From positions 107,638 to 171,637 of the forward strand of contig NZ_VCLA01000170.1 of assembly GCF_009600885.1 (NCBI RefSeq): DNA of 64,000 nt, in the 5' to 3' direction. This DNA comes from Streptomyces jumonjinensis. GTDB lineage: Bacteria > Actinomycetota > Actinomycetes > Streptomycetales > Streptomycetaceae. A model generated the notes under the pieces. That model saw only the letters and a list, made by a program, of their open reading frames with translations. It searched no databases and was not told the DNA's origin. The position numbers and the translations under genes were made by a program. The stretch's first letter is position 1. Every line of letters starts with the position of its first letter. Positions 3,927 to 13,129 of the stretch are shown piece by piece.

Positions 3927-4577
3927 TTGGCCTGTGACCTGTGGCTGGTCCCCCTTGTCGATGTGCTGTGCCACAGCCCCGGCAACCCCTTCGCCGAAGA
4001 ACTGGCGGCCTATGACAAGGCGCTGACGGACGCGGGCCTGCCCACGGTCCCCGTCTTCGCCTATATGCCGGGACTCTCCGGGGACGTGGCCCCGGTCGCC
4101 GGGTTCGACTACGACGCGCTGCATTTCCTGCGCAGGGCGTATCTGCTGAGGCTGTGCGGGCTCGCCGTGACGCCGGTGGACGAACTGGGCGGGGATTACG
4201 AGCAGCTGCTGGAGATGTTCGAGGCAACGGCGCAGGACTCCCATCTGGTCTGGCACTACGACCACGCGGGCGCGTACGTCCCGGTCGACTTCGCCGCCCC
4301 CCTCTCCAACGATGAACTGCTGGAGGGCGGCGGCCCGCTCGGCTCCACCCAGGGCCTGCTGCGCGAACTCGACTTCGTCGCCCCCGCGATCGGCATCGAC
4401 CCGACCAACCCCCCGACCGCCCCGACCCCACCGGACCGCCCGACCTCCCTGGAGGAACGCGCCGACCCGACCCCCTACGACGACAGCCCCTTCGCCCGCG
4501 AACGCCACGTCTGGCTGGGGCTGCACGCGGCGGCGACCCGGAGTCTGGGGCAGGGGTCGATGATCGTCTTCAGCTGA
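3927..4577 (+). CDS. hypothetical protein, Streptomyces-type
   Basis: 216 residues, acidic, without membrane segments. I do not recognise a named domain; the N-terminus (ACDLWLVPLVDVLCHS) looks like a conserved Streptomyces hypothetical family. Start is TTG at 3927, chosen because the conserved-looking sequence begins there and no ATG or GTG in frame is better placed. The C-terminal third is proline- and threonine-rich. Its stop overlaps by 8 bp the stop of the convergent gene at 4570-5094, inside a 17-bp sequence repeated at 5125. Confidence 0.6.
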   Translation: MACDLWLVPLVDVLCHSPGNPFAEELAAYDKALTDAGLPTVPVFAYMPGLSGDVAPVAGFDYDALHFLRRAYLLRLCGLAVTPVDELGGDYEQLLEMFEATAQDSHLVWHYDHAGAYVPVDFAAPLSNDELLEGGGPLGSTQGLLRELDFVAPAIGIDPTNPPTAPTPPDRPTSLEERADPTPYDDSPFARERHVWLGLHAAATRSLGQGSMIVFS

Positions 4578-4581
4578 GCCG
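4565..4581. repeat. 17-bp direct repeat, copy A
   Basis: CGTCTTCAGCTGAGCCG occurs here and identically at 5125-5141. This copy contains the stop codons of both convergent genes that meet here. The two copies flank the gene at 4570-5094. Confidence 0.85.
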
Positions 4582-5094
4582 CACACGAGCGGTGGCGTCG
4601 AGCGACCTCAGCTCATCCGCGCAGAGCGCCGCGAAGGCGGCTGACGACCTCGCCTCGATGCCATGGGTCTCGGCCATCGTGAAGAGGTGATCGAGAACCG
4701 AGTCGATGTCTTCGTGGTCCGCGATCGGACGGAGCAGCCACAGCCGGCCCGGAGGCCGGGGCGGGACGCCCGCCTCGGCCAGGTCGGTGTTCGCGTCGTT
4801 CTCCAGTACGTCGAGGTCGTGCTGTGACAGCGGTTGGCAGGTCGCGCCGGTGATCGTGCCAGTGGCGTCGAGCCGGGTCTCCACGGCCCATCGTGTCGAG
4901 CGATCGGGTACCCAAGTCCGCCGGTCCTCCGGCCATACGTAGGGCAGGAAGCCCCACATCGGCGCGTCCGGCGCCGGCTCCCAGCCGAACTCGGCGAGTT
5001 CGCGCACTTCAGGCAGTCGATCGGGCTCCTGCTCGCTGCGTCCGGTGCGAGCCAGTGCGACCGTGTGGGGTGCTCCGTCGGTGTCCCATCCCAT
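4570..5094 (-). CDS. hypothetical protein between 17-bp repeats
   Basis: 174 residues, soluble, with no recognised domain. Notable are a tryptophan/proline-rich N-terminal half and an acidic segment in the middle. It starts at ATG 5094 without an obvious RBS. Its C-terminal codons (…RLS stop) lie in a 17-bp sequence that is repeated beyond its 5' end, where it forms the C-terminus (also …RLS stop) of the next minus-strand gene. The gene may therefore be an inserted or duplicated cassette. Function unknown. Confidence 0.55.
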   Translation of the reverse strand: MGWDTDGAPHTVALARTGRSEQEPDRLPEVRELAEFGWEPAPDAPMWGFLPYVWPEDRRTWVPDRSTRWAVETRLDATGTITGATCQPLSQHDLDVLENDANTDLAEAGVPPRPPGRLWLLRPIADHEDIDSVLDHLFTMAETHGIEARSSAAFAALCADELRSLDATARVRLS

Positions 5095-5124
5095 GGGCAG
5101 CAGAGTAGCTTCGGGGGCGGACCC

Positions 5125-5141
5125 CGTCTTCAGCTGAGCCG
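5125..5141. repeat. 17-bp direct repeat, copy B
   Basis: Second identical copy of CGTCTTCAGCTGAGCCG, 560 bp from copy A. It contains the last codons and stop of the ATPase gene at 5130-5630. Confidence 0.85.
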
Positions 5142-5630
5142 GTTCTCATCGGGGGCGGCGAGGACGGACCAGGTGCGGGAGCCGTCCGGGGTGATTCCCC
5201 AGGTGTCCGAGAGGGCGGCGACGAGGTGGAGGCCGCGCCCGCCCTCGTCGTAGGGGTCGGGCTGGCGGGTGCGGGGTTTCCAGGGGCTGGGGCCGCTGTC
5301 GACCTCGATACAGATGTACGTCGCGGTCCGCCAGAGCCGGACCGCGACGGTATCGCCCCGTCCGTGCTGGAACCCGTTGGTCACGAGCTCCGAGATCACG
5401 AGGTCGGCCGACTCGATGAGCGCGTCGAGCCGCCAGACCCGGAGCTGAGCCGCGCCGAGCCTGCGCATCAGAGCCGGCCAGGCCCGGTCGTGCTGGGCGA
5501 TGGGCTCGCCCGGGAGGGCTGTACGGGACAGTCGCATATCGAATCCGTTGGTGATCGGCTGGCGATCGAGAGCGACCGTTCCGGGGTGCCGCCGGGTGCC
5601 CTCGTCCGGGCGGGTTGTTGTGGTGGGCAT
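5130..5630 (-). CDS. ATP-binding protein, HATPase_c_2 (anti-sigma kinase-like)
   Basis: 166-residue GHKL ATPase of the SpoIIAB/RsbW type that is very abundant in Streptomyces. The N box is SELVTNGFQHG, followed by the G1 motif EVDSGPS and the G2 motif GGRGLHLV. Such proteins bind or phosphorylate anti-sigma-factor antagonists or act with neighbouring XRE/DUF397 proteins; the partner here is not known. ATG at 5630 has an RBS (ggagg) about 8 nt upstream. It is divergent from the XRE/DUF5753 gene, with an operator array between them, a layout typical of the whiJ-like cassettes. Confidence 0.85.
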   Translation of the reverse strand: MPTTTTRPDEGTRRHPGTVALDRQPITNGFDMRLSRTALPGEPIAQHDRAWPALMRRLGAAQLRVWRLDALIESADLVISELVTNGFQHGRGDTVAVRLWRTATYICIEVDSGPSPWKPRTRQPDPYDEGGRGLHLVAALSDTWGITPDGSRTWSVLAAPDENRLS

Positions 5631-5807
5631 GACGAGGTCCTCCGCGAGGGGGTCAGGGGGGCGCGCGGAAGGGTTCGCAAGCCCCCTGAACTGGGAACTC
5701 TGCCCGGATCGCGCTGTCTCTCAACTACCGTGACGCCTAAGGCGAATGCCATGCAAGCTGAACGCTCCTGAATTTTCAGCAAGCCTCTGAATTGGACTAT
5801 GCGCGAG

Positions 5808-5861
5808 TCTGCGCAGAGCCCTGAGGCGTCTGCGCAGAGCGCTCAGTCCCCTGCGCAGAGC
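5808..5861. promoter_or_regulatory. three 21-bp-spaced operator repeats
   Basis: CTGCGCAGAGC occurs at 5809-5819, 5830-5840 and 5851-5861, exactly 21 bp apart, so all three face the same side of the helix. Each has the palindromic core CTGCGCAG; the first two extend to TCTGCGCAGA. They lie just upstream of a TTGACT hexamer (5867-5872) and 40 bp before the XRE gene start. They are probably binding sites for that regulator, which would control itself and perhaps the divergent ATPase. Confidence 0.75.
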
Positions 5862-5900
5862 GGTACTTGACTGGCACAGTGGAAGTGGAAGGGTGCACAC

Positions 5901-6791
5901 GTGGGAGCCAAACGCGGAGCAACCGGACGACGGTTGGAGTTAGGCATCCAGTTGAGGCAGTTGCGTGAGAACTGCCCGCCGATCGAGGAGAACAGGCTGA
6001 AGGGGATGACCCGGAAGGAAGCGGTTCGGGGGTTGAAAGACCTCTCCGAGCCGACGCTTGCCCGCATCGAACTGGGCGAGCTCAACTTCCGCCGGAACAT
6101 CGGCAATCTGCGCACGCTGTTGAAGCGGTACGGCGTGACGGACGACGAGCTGATCAAACAGCTCATCGAGCTCAACCGTGAAGCGCCCAATGAGGAGTGG
6201 CTGACTCAGTACCGCAGTTTTCTGCCTACTGGCATGCCGCACTTCCTCGGCCTAGAGACAGAGGCGGTCGCTATCGCCGCCTACCACCCGACGGTCATCT
6301 ATAGCCTCCTTCAGACTGAGGCATATGCCAAGGCCCTCTATGAAATGGGCCGCCCCGTGGAGGACACGACGGCCGAGTTCGTCAAACGTCATGTCGAACT
6401 CCGGATGGAGCGCAAACACAGGGTGCTGACGCGCGAGGGGCCCGTGCGTCTTCGCATCGTCCTGGGCGAGGCAGCCGTACGCATCCCGGTCGGGGACGAC
6501 GAGGTGATGCGCGAGCAGTACGAGGAGATCATCCGGCTGGCGCGCGAAGACCACGTCTCGATACAGATTCTCCCCTTCCGGCGTGGCTACCGTTCAAACC
6601 ACGACTTCGCGATTCTGGACCTCGGCGAACTGCCGCCCCGTGTTCAGACCGACAACGCCTGGGGCGCGGCTTCCGCATCGGACAAGCCCCGCGAGGTGAA
6701 CCGGTTCACGCGCCGGTTCGACGCGATGGTGGGCGTGGCCCTCGGGGTCGAGGAAACCATCGCATTCCTGACCGAACTAGCGAGAAGGTAG
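5901..6791 (+). CDS. XRE-family regulator with DUF5753 domain
   Basis: 296 residues. Residues about 12-75 form a helix-turn-helix of the XRE type (…LSEPTLARIELGELNFR…), and about 95-290 a DUF5753 domain, as in WhiJ-like developmental regulators of Streptomyces. Start is GTG 5901 behind ggaaggg. Codon 14 (5940-5942) is TTA, the rare leucine codon read by the bldA tRNA in Streptomyces, so translation may be restricted to late growth. It is flanked by an HATPase gene and a DUF397 gene, the usual three-gene cassette, and preceded by three operator repeats. Confidence 0.88.
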   Translation: MGAKRGATGRRLELGIQLRQLRENCPPIEENRLKGMTRKEAVRGLKDLSEPTLARIELGELNFRRNIGNLRTLLKRYGVTDDELIKQLIELNREAPNEEWLTQYRSFLPTGMPHFLGLETEAVAIAAYHPTVIYSLLQTEAYAKALYEMGRPVEDTTAEFVKRHVELRMERKHRVLTREGPVRLRIVLGEAAVRIPVGDDEVMREQYEEIIRLAREDHVSIQILPFRRGYRSNHDFAILDLGELPPRVQTDNAWGAASASDKPREVNRFTRRFDAMVGVALGVEETIAFLTELARR

Positions 6792-6798
6792 TAGAGCC

Positions 6799-7065
6799 AT
6801 CAACACGCACACCCCGGCCACCGAGCTGGCCCCCGAGAGCGCCTGGTTCAAATCGTCGTACAGCGGCGACACCGGCAACAACTGCGTCGAGGTCGCCTGG
6901 CTCAAGTCGTCGTACAGCGATGGCACCGGCAACAACTGCGTTGAGGTTGCCGACTTCTCCGACCGGGTCGGTATCCGCGACTCCAAGGACAAGCAGGGCC
7001 CGGCCCTGATGGTCCCCGTCGCTGCCTGGAGCGCCTTCGCGGCGTTCGCGGCGGCGTCGGCCTGA
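6799..7065 (+). CDS. DUF397 protein with duplicated motif and ATC start
   Basis: 88 residues if read from ATC 6799. The frame has no ATG, GTG or TTG between the upstream stop (6778-6780) and the conserved domain, yet an RBS (gaagg, 6784-6788) sits at normal distance before ATC. DUF397 proteins pair with XRE/DUF5753 regulators, and this one follows its partner by 7 nt. The family core W-KSSYS-NCVEVA is present twice in tandem (6844-6897 and 6898-6951, 54 bp each), followed by one VGIRDSKDKQGPAL and a hydrophobic C-terminus. It may use a rare start codon or be a silenced copy; CTG 6826 is a weaker alternative. Confidence 0.7.
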   Translation: MNTHTPATELAPESAWFKSSYSGDTGNNCVEVAWLKSSYSDGTGNNCVEVADFSDRVGIRDSKDKQGPALMVPVAAWSAFAAFAAASA

Positions 7066-7136
7066 CCGCAACGCGGTGCGGGGTGCTCCTCCCGTAAGGC
7101 GGGGGCGGGCACTCCGCATTCGTTTACCGGCAGGTC

Positions 7137-7457
7137 TCAATCGGGTGGCCGCACGACGGCTGCGGTCGCCATGTTGTTGTTCTCCAGGTCGAAGGGGTTC
7201 AGCTCCACACTGCGGATGAGAACACCCGGAACGTATTCGACGAGAGCCAGGATTTCTGCGATGGCCTCAGTGAGGGTCTCGGTGTCGTAATAGCAGACGA
7301 AATCAGTGAAACCCGGACCTTGTACCCGGCCGATGAAGCTATCGGCGAAGACGTCATGGGTATCCATGATGTCGTTCTGCTCCGGGGTGAGTGGTTCTTG
7401 CGTGTGCAGGGTGAAATACCAACTACGCACAGTTCCGGTGGTGTCGGATGAATGCAT
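7137..7457 (-). CDS. hypothetical protein, possible partner of the upstream basic protein
   Basis: 106 residues, acidic, no known domain seen. It contains a central segment VCYYDTETLTEAIAEIL and a C-terminus ending ATAAVVRPPD. If read from ATG 7457 it overlaps the upstream gene by 35 nt; a GTG at 7430 would leave an 8-nt overlap. The tight arrangement suggests translational coupling with the small basic protein upstream, as in toxin/antitoxin-like pairs. That role is inference from arrangement only. Confidence 0.55.
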   Translation of the reverse strand: MHSSDTTGTVRSWYFTLHTQEPLTPEQNDIMDTHDVFADSFIGRVQGPGFTDFVCYYDTETLTEAIAEILALVEYVPGVLIRSVELNPFDLENNNMATAAVVRPPD

Positions 7458-7653
7458 CGACCCTATGCGCCGCTCCTCCTGCGCTTCTGGGGGTGCTGTA
7501 CACGGTCACGCTTTCTTTGCATGGACAGCAGATGACCCAACCCCAACGATGCCGGTTCTTGTCGTGCGTCACCTTAAGGCCGGATGCTTCCGCCCTGCGG
7601 AGGGCTGCTTCGACGTCCTTCTTCTGATGTCGATCACCTAGTCCCATGCTCAT
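7423..7653 (-). CDS. small basic protein, HicA-like
   Basis: About 76 residues, rich in Lys, Arg and His. The segment DVEAALRRAEASGLKVTHDK followed by RWGWVIC resembles the double-stranded-RNA-binding fold of HicA-type mRNA interferases (helix, strand, basic hairpin), but the usual catalytic histidine context is not clear, so this is a weak match. Start ATG 7653 (or 7647) has no strong RBS. It overlaps the following acidic gene. Upstream frame extension to 7857 reads as non-protein-like sequence. Confidence 0.5.
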   Translation of the reverse strand: MSMGLGDRHQKKDVEAALRRAEASGLKVTHDKNRHRWGWVICCPCKESVTVYSTPRSAGGAAHRVDAFIRHHRNCA

Positions 7654-7826
7654 ACGACTACTCGCACCATCACAGAACGAGGGAGCGAACCCCGAGTACG
7701 TCACCCCATCGAGTCGGGTCAGCTTCGACAAGGGGACAGGGCTTGGGCCAGAGCCAGACGGGTCACTCGGACCGTCCGGTGAAGCTCCAGTTCTGGGTGA
7801 AGGACGCCAAGACCGGGCAGGCCGCC

Positions 7827-9005
7827 TCAGAATGTGCTGATCTCGGCCCGGATCCATCCCTCGCGCGGGTGGCTCACCTTCAGGGCCGACATCGAAAACC
7901 GCAGATATATATCCGGGGTCCCGCCCACGTACGCCGCCATGAGCTGCCAGGACGGGTCACCTTGGCGCGAGTCGTCCCGCAGGAGCGCCGCCGCCTCCGG
8001 AGGGGAGAGGGGCGGCAACACCTGTTCCATCATCGCGCGGTCGGCCAGGGGAATCAGTGCGCCCATGAAGGAACGGGCTATATCGAGCGCGAAGGGGTTC
8101 AGGCCCCAGGGCGGGCAGACAGCCCAGTCTTCGCGCAGCTGGAGCGTCGCGCAGGTGATGCGGTCGCGCCCGTCGCATTCCAGTTCCAGGGCAACTTTGT
8201 CCGTGAAGCCGCCGGTGGAGAGGTGGACAGTGCGATGGGGCCCATCCTGGTCACCGTCCGCGCCAGTGCGTTCGTGTATGCCGAAGAAAGACCAGAACTC
8301 CGAATCCCTCAATTTGCTGTAACGAAGCGCTCCAGGCTTCCCGCCCGCCTCCGCCCAGAGACTCGGCCAGATGTGGACGCCGACCAGCACCCGGGCGAGC
8401 TCATCCTCGGTGATCGTCCACTGGTGCTCGCCGTGCTCTCGGGCGTCGATCCCCGCGGCGTTCTGGTGCCGGCACAGCAGTGATTCGCCAGGCCAGGGGT
8501 CTTCGTAGATGATCCGGTCGCCCTCGCGGCCAAGGAGATTCACGCCATGCCCGGATCGCCCGTCGTGCACGAATGCGACGATGTCGCTCCCACCGATCTC
8601 GAAGAAGCGGCGCATCCGGTGACGCAGTTGCGGCCAGGAGAGCCTGACGACCACGGGGATGGACTCGGTCCCCTGGCTGGGGCGTCCTTCGACGAGCACG
8701 CAGACCATCGGGATGCCGAACATCGTCATCGTCATGTGCCAGCTCTGGCCTATCGTGTGGCCCCTGTCGCCCGAGCCGTACAGCTCCGGGTTCTCCTGCT
8801 CCAACTGTTTTTCGGCCTGTTCCAACACGCGGATCCAGGCAACTCGTTGATCGTGGCTATGGGGATCCAGACGGACGTTCATGGTCCGCTCGAACCGCAT
8901 CTCCGGCCCGCCTCCGGAGCCGCCCTGCTCCGGTGTATCCGTGCCCCCGTCCCGCCGGGAAGCACCCTTGCGCCGTTGCCACCATGCCCCCATGACCGGG
9001 ACCAT
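7827..9005 (-). CDS. hypothetical protein with C39-peptidase-like segment
   Basis: 392 residues from ATG 9005; starts at 8993 or 8900 are also possible and the first 35 residues are low complexity. No domain is recognised with confidence. Near residue 160 the stretch GHGVNLLGREGDRIIYEDPW looks like the His-containing half of C39-like papain-fold peptidases (GH-V---G-dGd-vyynDPW). No matching QxxxxxC cysteine motif is visible before it, so any such domain would be inactive or rearranged. Ordered strands follow to the C-terminus, and no membrane segment is seen. It is divergent by 14 nt from the zinc-ribbon membrane gene. Confidence 0.6.
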   Translation of the reverse strand: MVPVMGAWWQRRKGASRRDGGTDTPEQGGSGGGPEMRFERTMNVRLDPHSHDQRVAWIRVLEQAEKQLEQENPELYGSGDRGHTIGQSWHMTMTMFGIPMVCVLVEGRPSQGTESIPVVVRLSWPQLRHRMRRFFEIGGSDIVAFVHDGRSGHGVNLLGREGDRIIYEDPWPGESLLCRHQNAAGIDAREHGEHQWTITEDELARVLVGVHIWPSLWAEAGGKPGALRYSKLRDSEFWSFFGIHERTGADGDQDGPHRTVHLSTGGFTDKVALELECDGRDRITCATLQLREDWAVCPPWGLNPFALDIARSFMGALIPLADRAMMEQVLPPLSPPEAAALLRDDSRQGDPSWQLMAAYVGGTPDIYLRFSMSALKVSHPREGWIRAEISTF

Positions 9006-9019
9006 ATCGCCGTATCATC

Positions 9020-9670
9020 ATGCCCACCATGGGTGAACAGGGACAGAGACTCCTTCAGCACCTCGTGCCCGAATGTCCGCACTGCGCGCACCGTCACCGC
9101 TTCGCCCTGCTCATCGGCCCTGACAACGAGCCACTGCTCTTCGCGGGCACACAGGAGGTGCCGGTACAACTTGTCTGCCCCGAGACCCGCCAGAGCTTCG
9201 AGGGCCGCATCACCATCGGCTCCAACGAGCAATTCCTGCGGATAGCGGATCCTTTTGCCGCCGATCACAGCTTCGCCGCCGCTGAAGCGGATCCGGAGCT
9301 GGCCGAGTGGATACGTTCCTCGCGCCAGACCTCCACCGAGTACTGCAAGACGATGCTGACCGCGTCTTCCGCCGGTGTCCCGGTGCACTTCGCAGTGCTT
9401 CAGTATCTCGACATCTCCGGCCGCACGGGCGGCTGGACGACCCGTGCCGCCGCCCTACCCGCCCTCTTGTACGTCCTCGCCGCAGCGGCCTTTGCTCTCG
9501 CGCAGCGTCCGCGTCTTGTCCAGCTTGCTGACACTTCCGCGGCGGCTTTTGCCACCCTGCGCCGCACCACCCTGCGGCGCATCGACCGACTTGCCCGGTG
9601 GGGCACCACGCTCTTTCTTCTCGGCAGCGTCGGCGCGTTCCTCGTCTTCGCCATCCTGCTCGGCAGATAG
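9020..9670 (+). CDS. hypothetical membrane protein with CxxC motif
   Basis: 216 residues. The N-terminal 75 residues contain CPHC and a later lone cysteine (VCPET), which may form a zinc-ribbon-like fold. The middle is helical and acidic. Two hydrophobic segments lie near residues 140-160 (ALPALLYVLAAAAFALA) and 192-214 (FLLGSVGAFLVFAILLG), so the protein is likely anchored with its N-terminus in the cytoplasm. ATG 9020 or 9029. No family assigned. The close divergence from 7827-9005 suggests shared regulation. Confidence 0.6.
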   Translation: MPTMGEQGQRLLQHLVPECPHCAHRHRFALLIGPDNEPLLFAGTQEVPVQLVCPETRQSFEGRITIGSNEQFLRIADPFAADHSFAAAEADPELAEWIRSSRQTSTEYCKTMLTASSAGVPVHFAVLQYLDISGRTGGWTTRAAALPALLYVLAAAAFALAQRPRLVQLADTSAAAFATLRRTTLRRIDRLARWGTTLFLLGSVGAFLVFAILLGR

Positions 9671-9718
9671 CCGACGACACCGCACCTCGGTCCGCTGAGG
9701 CATCTTGATCCGCGACGA

Positions 9719-10311
9719 TCATTGATCGCTAGCCGAGCAGGCTCCCGGAATACGCGATACCTGGGAAAGGCCGGGCTCTCGATGGCGATGCCCCGGGCGG
9801 CCTGCTTGCCCGCTCCTGCGCCGGTTTTCGCCCGAGGAAGAGGTCACCCGCCCGTCCGCGCGGGCGCGGGACAGCGGGTAGCGCGCTTTGTCGCGGATCG
9901 CTTCCTTGCGGTAGTGCTCCGGGTCGCGGGGCCAGGCGGCGGAGTTCTCACCGCACATGATGGTTCAGAAGGCAGCCTTGCCGTTCTCGTACGGTGAGAC
10001 CGTCCCGAGGACGGGGCGGGCGGTCGGCGGGTCTGGGAGTCGGCGCGCTTGCCCTTGACGCTCGTTCGGCACCGGGAGACCGCGATCTCGATCTGCTTGC
10101 CACCGGGCCGCCGGTAGTCCAGCGGCACTTTGACCTTCGTGCCCTGGAAGGCGGCCGGAGTCTCGGGGTCGCACCGCTTCCACGCCGGCTTCTGCTGGGG
10201 GTACCGGTCCAGCACACCCTTGGCGGGAGCTGGGGCGGCGGTGGCGATCCCGGGAGCTGGCGAGGCCATCGGGCCGATCGCCATCAGGGGCACCAGTCGT
10301 CGTCGCTGCAC
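9719..10311 (-). pseudogene. remnant of secreted tripeptidyl-aminopeptidase-like hydrolase
   Basis: The minus strand from 10311 starts with a signal-peptide-like N-terminus and continues with the family pattern (RYPQQKPAWKRCD, then VKVPLDYRRPGGKQIEIAVSR) of Streptomyces secreted alpha/beta-hydrolase tripeptidyl aminopeptidases. It then loses its frame. Another frame resumes with YENGKAAF, an in-frame TGA at 9965-9967, and CGENSAAWPRDPEHYRKEAI, which matches the region around the cap domain near the middle of these roughly 500-residue enzymes. The nucleophile region and the whole C-terminus are missing. It has a frame change, a nonsense codon and a large deletion. Confidence 0.75.
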
Positions 10312-10463
10312 GGGGTCGATCCTCTTCCGTCGCGTGATCGGGACAGGAAAGACTCTGTCGTGCCGTCCGGCCAGGCGAACCCCCCGGCCGGGCCGTGCTT
10401 CCCGTCCGTCTCAGGAGAGACGGGAGCGGCCTGATCGTCTTCCGGGCGGACCCGGAGCGGCGT

Positions 10464-11207
10464 TCAGCGCGGCGACTCCGGCGGGCGTTGGCGGGGCATG
10501 TTCGGGCGGGTGCCCGGGGGGAGGGGGGTGCGGCCCGGTGGGATGGGGTCCGGGGGGCGGGGGGAGGGGGGTGCGGGCAGCGGCGCCGCGTGGAGGGTCA
10601 GTGGGGCCGGGGAGCCCGCGAACTCGCGCATCCAGTCCGCTGTCTCCGCGCGGACCAGCTCCGTCACATCCTCCGAGAAGCTCCGCAGCACCTTCAGGCA
10701 GCGTTCGGCCGCCTCGCTCGCCGTGCCCTCCGCCGGGCCCAGCACCTCCCGTACGCTCTCCGACGCCCAGTCGAACTGGAGCGTCTGGAGTCGGCGCTGC
10801 ACCGCCTGCGCCGTCGCCACATGGCGCATCCAGCCGGAGGTCACCCCGAAGTACCGGTCGCAGGCCAGACACGCGGCACCCAGGAGCAGGGAGAGATATC
10901 CCCAGCCCGCCGCCCCGGGGAGCGCGCCCGTCAGATCGACCAGGGGGAGCGCCGCGCCCGCGATGAAGCCCGCCGCCGCGCCGGTGCGCAGCGCCCTGCC
11001 CGTACGCCGCTTCCACACCCGGTCCGCCAGATACCACTCCACCGTGCGGAGCGCGCCGGTCTCGACCCAGCGGAACAGCTCGTCGAGGCGTTCGGCGGGC
11101 TCGCCCCAGTCGCCCAGCGGAAACGGCCTTCCGGTCAGATCACCGCGCGGCACCTCGCCGCGCTCCTCCCGGGCAGGCCCCCCGGGCTGCATCTCCGGCT
11201 GGCTCAC
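10464..11207 (-). CDS. SLATT-like two-TM membrane protein
   Basis: 247 residues. Two adjacent hydrophobic segments at about residues 75-95 and 103-122 are followed by GWMRHVATAQAVQRRL and a helical tail with FDWASESV. This matches the SLATT architecture (SMODS- and SLOG-associating 2TM effector). SLATT proteins are proposed membrane-perforating effectors in conflict systems; no nucleotide-sensor partner is adjacent here. Start GTG 11207 has a good RBS (gaggag), whereas the longer frame to 11294 lacks one. The C-terminal 40 residues are proline-rich. It is divergent from ybaB. Confidence 0.7.
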   Translation of the reverse strand: MSQPEMQPGGPAREERGEVPRGDLTGRPFPLGDWGEPAERLDELFRWVETGALRTVEWYLADRVWKRRTGRALRTGAAAGFIAGAALPLVDLTGALPGAAGWGYLSLLLGAACLACDRYFGVTSGWMRHVATAQAVQRRLQTLQFDWASESVREVLGPAEGTASEAAERCLKVLRSFSEDVTELVRAETADWMREFAGSPAPLTLHAAPLPAPPSPRPPDPIPPGRTPLPPGTRPNMPRQRPPESPR

Positions 11208-11489
11208 CGGGGAACTCCTCTGATGTTGTGTGTCGCGTCGTGTTACGGGGCAATTACTCCTTGCGCCTGCCTCGCGCGTGCATGGTGACGGCAAGCCCTT
11301 ACTACCGCCGAATGGTGGTCCATGCGGCGGAAATCCCCGTGGTTCCGGGCCTCGCGGGGGTCGTGATCAGGTAGAGGACCCGCAGGATACTCACTCGAAA
11401 GAGTTGTCGCCTCGGGGTTCGGCGAGCCGCCGGACGACCACGTAGGCTCGGCATACCGAAGCAACATCGTCGAAGTGCCAGGAGTGACC
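11208..11489. other. divergent intergenic region
   Basis: 280 bp between the SLATT gene and ybaB. It holds the promoters of both. I saw no convincing RNA gene; in particular no 4.5S-like RNA, which sits near ybaB-recR in some bacteria. Confidence 0.5.
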
Positions 11490-11880: not shown

Positions 11881-12480
11881 TTGTACGAAGGCGTGGTTCA
11901 GGACCTCATCGACGAGCTGGGCAGGCTGCCCGGCGTCGGTCCCAAGAGCGCGCAGCGGATCGCCTTTCACATCCTCCAGGCCGAGCCCACCGACGTCCGT
12001 CGGCTCGCCCATGCCCTGCTGGAAGTGAAGGACAAGGTCCGCTTCTGCGCGATCTGCGGCAACGTCGCTCAGCAGGAACGGTGCGGCATCTGCCGCGACC
12101 CGCGCCGGGACCTCTCCGTCATCTGTGTGGTGGAGGAGTCCAAGGATGTGGTCGCGATCGAGCGGACCCGGGAGTTCCGGGGGCGGTATCACGTGCTCGG
12201 CGGGGCGATCAGCCCCATCGAGGGCGTCGGCCCCGACGATCTGCGCATCCGTGAGCTGCTGGCGCGGCTCGCGGACGGCACGGTCACCGAGCTGATCCTC
12301 GCCACGGACCCCAATCTGGAGGGCGAGGCCACGGCCACCTATCTGGCGCGCATGATCAAACCGATGGGCCTCAGGGTCACTCGGCTGGCCAGCGGTCTGC
12401 CGGTGGGGGGAGACTTGGAATACGCCGACGAGGTCACGCTCGGGCGTGCCTTCGAGGGGAGACGACTTCTCGATGTCTGA
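11881..12480 (+). CDS. recR: recombination protein RecR
   Basis: 199 residues, the usual length. Order: helix-hairpin-helix ([16 protein letters not shown]), C4 zinc finger ([16 protein letters not shown]), then a Toprim domain ([10 protein letters not shown], and [14 protein letters not shown]) and the Walker-B-like tail. RecR works with RecO/RecF to load RecA on SSB-coated gaps. Start TTG 11881 follows a gaggag RBS; the next GTG is four codons later. The stop overlaps the start of the DUF5063 gene by 8 nt. Confidence 0.95.
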
Positions 12481-13129
12481 TGCCATGCTGCACGCGACGC
12501 ACCAGGATCCGGCCGATTTCGCGGTCCAGATCGCGGACTCGATCGAGTCCTTCATCGTCGCGACCACCGAGGTCGCCAAGGGTGACGAGCCGGACAGCGC
12601 CGTGCCCTTCCTGCTCCTTGAGGTCTCCCAGCTGCTGCTGACCGGCGGCCGGCTGGGCGCGCACGAGGACATCGTCCCGGATGAGCGGTGGGAGCCGGAC
12701 ACCGGCCCGGAGCCGGATGTGGCCGATCTGCGCGAGCGGTTCGCCCGGCTGCTCGACCCGGTCGATGTGTTCTCCGAGGTCTTCGACCCCTATGAGCCGC
12801 GCAAGGCCCCGGTGGCCTGCCGGATCTCCGACAGCCTCGCCGACATCGTCACCGATCTCCGCCATGGGCTGGCCCACTACCGGGCGGGCCGTGTCACGGA
12901 GGCGCTGTGGTGGTGGCAGTTCTCGTACTTCTCCAACTGGGGCCCCACCGCGTCCGGCACCCTGCGGGCCCTTCAGTCCCTGGTCTCCCACGTCCGTCTC
13001 GACCAGCCGCTGGAGGAGCTGGACGGGCTGGACACGGACGAGGATCTGGCGGACGACGCACTGGCGGAGGCCGCCGGACGGGTGATGGCCGAGGAGATCG
13101 CGCTTCCGCTCGGGCTGCGCACCAGCTGA
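12473..13129 (+). CDS. DUF5063 domain protein
   Basis: 218 residues, acidic and helical. The region [28 protein letters not shown] is characteristic of the DUF5063 family found behind recR in actinobacteria. ATG 12473 overlaps the recR stop and has a ggggaga RBS inside recR, so translation is coupled. No catalytic motif is visible, and the role is unknown. Confidence 0.85.

Follow-up and report, generated by a model that had tools for sequence, protein, structure and literature searches.

An exact 17-bp direct repeat brackets a gene of the DUF5956 family in the chromosome of Streptomyces jumonjinensis, and insertion of this gene with duplication of the site is its likeliest history. The observation of the repeat is right and goes beyond chance. 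For the route, we give illegitimate insertion, most likely of a fragment captured at a staggered break, a probability of about 0.5. All positions refer to the window, the whole stretch of 64,000 nucleotides that was analyzed.

Results

The 17-mer CGTCTTCAGCTGAGCCG was found exactly at 4565–4581 (copy A, plus strand) and 5125–5141 (copy B, plus strand) of the window, at both ends of the 174-residue gene as claimed in the initial annotation. The first 13 nt of copy A form the coding end and stop of the plus-strand neighbor, here called gene A (TGA at 4575–4577), and the stop of the DUF5956 gene on the minus strand lies in the same copy (4570–4572). Copy B supplies the last codons and the stop (5130–5132) of an ATPase gene on the minus strand. 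The C-terminal residues RLS are common to both minus-strand proteins; the RLS end with stop in each copy and the plus-strand stop in copy A, both described initially, were thus confirmed. Stops on both strands of the repeat result from its core TCAGCTGA, which is an 8-nt palindrome. A plus-strand TGA is present within copy B as well, where it terminates no listed ORF.

In the genome (8.46 Mb, 208 contigs) the two sites are the sole exact copies of the 17-mer, and the next best sites have 1 mismatch. With up to 3 mismatches, one further match (3 mismatches) was obtained in the window; the shuffle comparison gave a mean of 0.49 matches and reached 3 matches in 2 of 100 shuffles. As a control, the 3′ flank of a gene was compared with its 5′ flank for the longest common direct repeat. 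The maximum among 1118 predicted genes from 80 related loci was 12 nt, compared to 17 nt for the window gene; the gene finder used here and for the DUF5956 loci follows a simple codon-composition rule and misses some genes. Short-range repeats per se are not rare, since exact repeats of at least 17 nt at 60–1000 bp distance occurred 103 times in 1.55 Mb of related loci and 7 times in the window. At a spacing of 400–700 bp only 3 were counted in the same 1.55 Mb. The flanking repeat expected of a site-duplicating insertion is present, being exact, at both edges, 17 nt long and beyond chance. RNA folding of three stretches at the repeat (copy A on both strands, copy B on the minus strand) was no better than that of shuffles, and a terminator scan returned two overlapping sites at 5597–5614, which lie in the ATPase gene, at a distance from the repeat. 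On these grounds a role of the repeat in RNA structure was rejected.

Gene A (3927–4577, plus strand, 216 aa, tail ATGATCGTCTTCAGCTGA) is a conserved Streptomyces gene with no match in Pfam. Matches covering most of the gene were obtained in 59 of 60 genus genomes, the exception (G050) being 82% complete. Across 108 distinct loci, one of them the window, the gene ends in codons for MI[IV]FS or MIILS plus stop, and 30 of these 108 carry 18 nt identical to the gene A end of the window. Judged from this conservation, copy A is evidently the old copy and part of the conserved gene A tail. Matches of at least 13 nt to the gene A stop region occur further downstream in 18 of the 108 loci, again with the window included. 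A direct match of at least 15 nt beyond 100 bp is confined to the window among the 108 loci, some of which have 1.5 kb of flank only. Near-tandem copies of 13–14 nt of the tail region lie right behind gene A in two loci (L035 and L074), and in genome G041 (L020) the last 110 nt of gene A recur as an inverted near-copy 111 bp downstream, which may reflect either an inversion-duplication or an error of assembly. An 11-nt copy of the tail (TGATCGTCTTC) at 10432–10442 (plus strand), 21 nt before the stop of the SLATT gene, is the only second occurrence of this word in the window. Because it is only 11 nt long, a match reached by a random 60-nt stretch in 0.36% of 20,000 draws and, through an unrelated word, in 1 of 16 other loci compared, we merely note it as weak and possibly due to chance.

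The usual convergent neighbor of gene A is a SLATT_2 gene (10464–11294, minus strand, Pfam E 7e-104). It stands behind gene A on the opposite strand in 65 of the best 80 loci among the matches listed, a set outside which the records nearest to the genome of the window may fall. The gap between both genes has a median of 90 bp and is below 500 bp in 85 of 95 rows and above 1 kb in 10, with the window included, some genomes entering twice, the 15 of 80 loci lacking a SLATT gene behind gene A left out, and loci with 1.5 kb of flank being blind to large gaps. In the window this accessory interval (4578–10463) measures 5886 bp versus the median of 90 bp. It contains the DUF5956 gene, a cassette of ATPase, XRE and DUF397 genes, and other ORFs for which Pfam gave no match; a scan of 11 ORFs of this island detected no recombinase family.

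The 174-aa gene (4570–5094, minus strand) was confirmed as a member of DUF5956 (PF19381) by a Pfam score of 63.1 bits, above the gathering cut-off of 24 bits. Together with one repeat copy it makes up an inserted unit of 560 bp (4582–5141 or, equivalently, 4565–5124), in agreement with the repeat spacing of 560. Within the repeats it is the sole family match, two smaller overlapping ORFs being without one. The C-termini of 16 DUF5956 relatives of 163–181 aa all differ from that of the window protein, which indicates that its RLS and stop come from copy A. DUF5956 is patchy in the genus and occurs in 21 of 392 genomes, own genome included, with 20 of the 21 over the cut-off. Twelve of the 20 other genomes share one locus downstream of recR, beside an amidohydrolase or HD-domain gene; in three of the 12 it lies ~12 kb downstream of gene A. 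The stretches surrounding the remaining 8 genes show none of the neighbors of the shared locus, and no second DUF5956 gene was found in the genome of the window. Orthologues of the genes that flank the shared locus are ~28 kb apart in the window (~21800–49900), with other DNA between them. A phylogenetic tree places the copy of the window outside the 12 shared-locus copies, with weak support throughout. Its DUF5956 identity amounts to 53–62%, versus 77–79% and 64–70% for two neighbors at the shared locus. Relocation from the shared locus was not upheld, as the tree is weak and the divergence is, by eye, in line with that of the neighbors; transfer of the gene was likewise not upheld by tree (weak support) or divergence.

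Comparison with 20 other DUF5956 loci, two of them left out for want of an alignment and L040 and L041 being partial matches with uncertain gene ends, revealed no flanking direct repeat above 10 nt in the 18 tested. Among the 19 copies tested the 17-nt flank is thus peculiar to the window, and since the 18 others have no such repeat, DUF5956 does not appear to form a mobile unit by itself. Four inverted-repeat pairs were detected, none of which joins the two ends of the unit as terminal inverted repeats would. A search of the genome returned no second copy of the 560-bp unit, only one 35-nt match inside it. PADLOC gave no match for 4 proteins, and a defense function was discarded on this basis. 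Solved structures offered nothing convincing for DUF5956 (best E 0.51), and a full-text literature search, outside whose scope most subscription journals lie, yielded no paper on it. In two loci (L197 and L199) a DUF5956 gene is convergent with a gene for a similar-looking protein (by eye) near XRE and ATPase genes; these convergent proteins have no Pfam match.

On the far side of copy B, Pfam assigns a HATPase_c_2 gene (5130–5630, minus strand, 166 aa, C-terminus …AAPDENRLS followed by the stop), an XRE-type regulator with DUF5753 (5901–6791, plus strand; NCBIfam TransRegSco1979 only below its cut-off) and a DUF397 gene (6802–7065, plus strand, E 4.4e-29). We take DUF397 to be the BldB family. 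The start codon of the DUF397 gene is unclear: on reading of the sequence at 6790–6810, none of ATG, GTG or TTG stood out as a start behind the stop of the XRE gene. These three genes and two small ones form a cassette (5156–7647) of which blastn and tblastn found a diverged paralogous copy elsewhere in the same genome (contig C200). The ATPase paralog on C200 matches through residue 157 and then ends in LLTVDGA and stop, and the DNA homology begins at 5156, 15 nt from copy B. Five further ATPase relatives have ends other than RLS, one of them (L186) in LS. As the relatives compared end otherwise, the final codons and the stop of the window ATPase are supplied by copy B, and its RLS end does not look ancestral. 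Since gene A usually faces the SLATT gene, the cassette itself is a newcomer beside gene A, and judged from gene order the ATPase gene is no old neighbor of it.

For relatives lacking the DUF5956 gene, the initial annotation had predicted an ATPase gene directly convergent with gene A. Such an arrangement was found in none of 80 plus 8 longer loci; these comprise the best 80 listed (with as much as 10 kb of sequence behind gene A, less in 20 of them) and 8 long ones, partly from the same genomes, with no close strains of this species among them. The locus L095 has an ATPase gene of 35% identity ~4 kb from gene A, beyond the SLATT gene. The absence of an empty site from every relative had been named beforehand as evidence against the insertion, and its absence from the loci examined does count against this history. 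The proposed insertion with duplication of the site was therefore only partly borne out. In its favor are a repeat that is both real and unusual, the old conserved gene tail to which copy A belongs, the lack of an RLS end in the ATPase relatives compared and a flank peculiar to the window gene among 19 copies; on the other side stand the empty site that was not found and an ATPase gene that is no old neighbor of gene A.

A parallel case was found in S. inusitatus (L060), the nearest relative among the loci listed, with a gene A 93% identical to that of the window. Here a direct repeat of 84 nt, 94% identical between its copies at 10681–10764 and 12478–12561, encloses two ORFs on the minus strand immediately behind gene A; the low-complexity filter on the repeat listing also hides this long repeat. 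One of the ORFs shows weak, sub-threshold similarity to metallopeptidases and the other has no Pfam match. The repeat corresponds to the 3′ end of the next gene, which is PAF-acetylhydrolase-like. Neither this gene nor the bracketed cargo has a homologue in the other loci compared, and consequently no empty site was found for S. inusitatus either. Nothing of that size was observed in the 8 other loci with gaps above 1 kb, of which one has a 17-nt repeat inside the gap and six have none of at least 13 nt, while in L139 a 13-nt repeat begins 3 nt behind gene A.

The genome of the window encodes two LigD-type polymerases and two ATP-dependent ligases. A Ku gene adjoins one of the polymerase genes, and an ATP-dependent ligase gene adjoins the second; no match to the LigD nuclease domain was found in the genome. 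According to the accessible part of one report, kuA-polK and ligC-polR are the core Streptomyces end-joining set, which the genes found here match, and the LigD nuclease domain is also absent in S. ambofaciens (PMC5124664).

Discussion

From the sequences compared we infer the order of events, the prior state and the repair mechanism. The ATPase–XRE–DUF397 cassette would first have come against gene A, so placed that the ATPase frame ran into the gene A tail and took its last codons and stop there. Later, a DUF5956 piece of ~543 bp would have been inserted at the junction of gene A and the ATPase gene, and duplication of 17 bp in this step would have left a stop each for gene A, the ATPase gene and the newcomer. 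Most likely, the staggered end of a double-strand break underwent fill-in, and Ku-type end joining linked it to a captured fragment; alternatively, a template switch may have re-copied the 17 nt and produced the same scar. What is seen is the scar itself, not the prior state, and the 17-bp duplication fits capture by non-homologous end joining (NHEJ) as it fits other routes. The preferred route gains slightly from the presence of the end-joining genes and loses slightly from the failure to find an empty site in the S. inusitatus case. In our judgement a stagger of 17 nt is long and one of 84 nt too long for simple fill-in, so that template switching or recombination may fit better; for the 84-nt case template switching may be a better fit than staggered-end capture. 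As one part of this explanation as a whole, held with the same evenly balanced confidence, the stretch from gene A to the SLATT gene may be a place where accessory genes gather.

The events may also have taken place in the opposite order, with DUF5956 first beside gene A and the ATPase cassette arriving second, the 17-mer being copied at its join. Either gene could have been first, as both minus-strand genes owe the same RLS stop to the repeat, and a diverged paralog of the cassette is present elsewhere in the genome. This order requires, however, that the gene A tail was copied 560 bp away, beyond DUF5956, which a simple cassette insertion does not bring about, and we regard it as unlikely. 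Alternatively, the 17-mer could be the attachment core of a small integrative or mobilized element that used the 3′ end of gene A and restored the gene, as is known of integrative elements at tRNA ends. The insertion at the 3′ end of a conserved gene with its frame kept and the 84-nt repeat that S. inusitatus has at this position are in accordance with such an element; but that repeat derives from the end of a different gene, and a gene A tail repeat of at least 13 nt is missing from the 8 other loci with gaps above 1 kb. Moreover, 560 bp leave no room for a recombinase gene next to DUF5956, and the island ORFs scanned contain no recombinase family. As the flanked DNA holds no site-specific recombinase, it does not qualify as an integrative element, and we consider this origin very improbable.

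Even less can be said for insertion of a transposon or IS element with a 17-bp target-site duplication. The exact flanking direct repeat and the sharp edges would suit it, yet neither terminal inverted repeats at the ends of the unit nor a transposase nor multiple copies were found, the 35-nt internal match being all that recurs in the genome, and the other DUF5956 genes have no flanking repeats; such an insertion is highly improbable. Chance, or a common constraint on overlapping convergent stops, is the least probable source of the repeat. The palindrome TCAGCTGA does offer stops on both strands, which suits convergent overlaps, and short-range repeats of 17 nt do occur (the 103 cases mentioned above). 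Against this, the palindrome covers only 8 of the 17 nt, copy B lies outside any convergent junction, the 17-mer has no other exact copy in the genome, and none of the 1118 control genes exceeded 12 nt.

Compared with these alternatives, illegitimate insertion remains our preferred reading. It makes the locus a readable scar of the entry of a single gene into a Streptomyces chromosome without a visible mobile element, and a clear, if ordinary, trace of gene gain in such genomes. On its own, one such locus changes nothing. Because two related species have a duplicated gene end at this hot spot, the route can be tested across many genomes. We tentatively put forward, as an idea with only a small chance of being right, that the 3′ ends of conserved Streptomyces genes are recurrent docking points at which accessory genes come in between convergent genes, the tail being re-copied (17 bp here, 84 bp in S. 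inusitatus) so that the adjacent frames stay intact. If this were true, it would amount to a general means of gene addition that needs no recombinase and causes no damage.

Comparison with known systems

As far as the accessible parts of the sources extend, the locus can be placed beside several known cases. At I-SceI breaks in S. ambofaciens, fill-in was reported at repaired ends, together with five inserts ranging from 30 bp to 18.8 kb (PMC5869714). This resembles the present case in that the genus is the same, fill-in and insertion occur there and end-joining genes are found here; it differs in that break and donor are inferred here and that a 17-bp duplication flanks the insert. All inserts in S. 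ambofaciens were the strain's own DNA, which counts against the capture reading here; uptake of foreign DNA by NHEJ is raised by the authors as a speculation (PMC5869714).

The clusters of whiJ, abaA and bldB paralogs share with 5130–7065 the combination of XRE-type, anti-sigma-like ATPase and small-protein genes, and the part of the report available does not mention DUF5956 in them (PMC10294661). AICE/ICE elements at a tRNA-Thr hot spot of Streptomyces are flanked by direct repeats of 42 and 43 nt (PMC6722414). As here, direct repeats surround accessory DNA that lies in a hot spot, next to the end of a conserved gene, whereas our case lacks integrase and transfer genes in the ORFs scanned, spans 560 bp and concerns a protein gene. 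The same report describes insertion/deletion hot spots in Streptomyces conspecifics, with indels from one gene upwards (PMC6722414). Different gene sets at one site in related genomes are a feature of both; in contrast to these hot spots as described there, one junction in the window has retained a readable scar.
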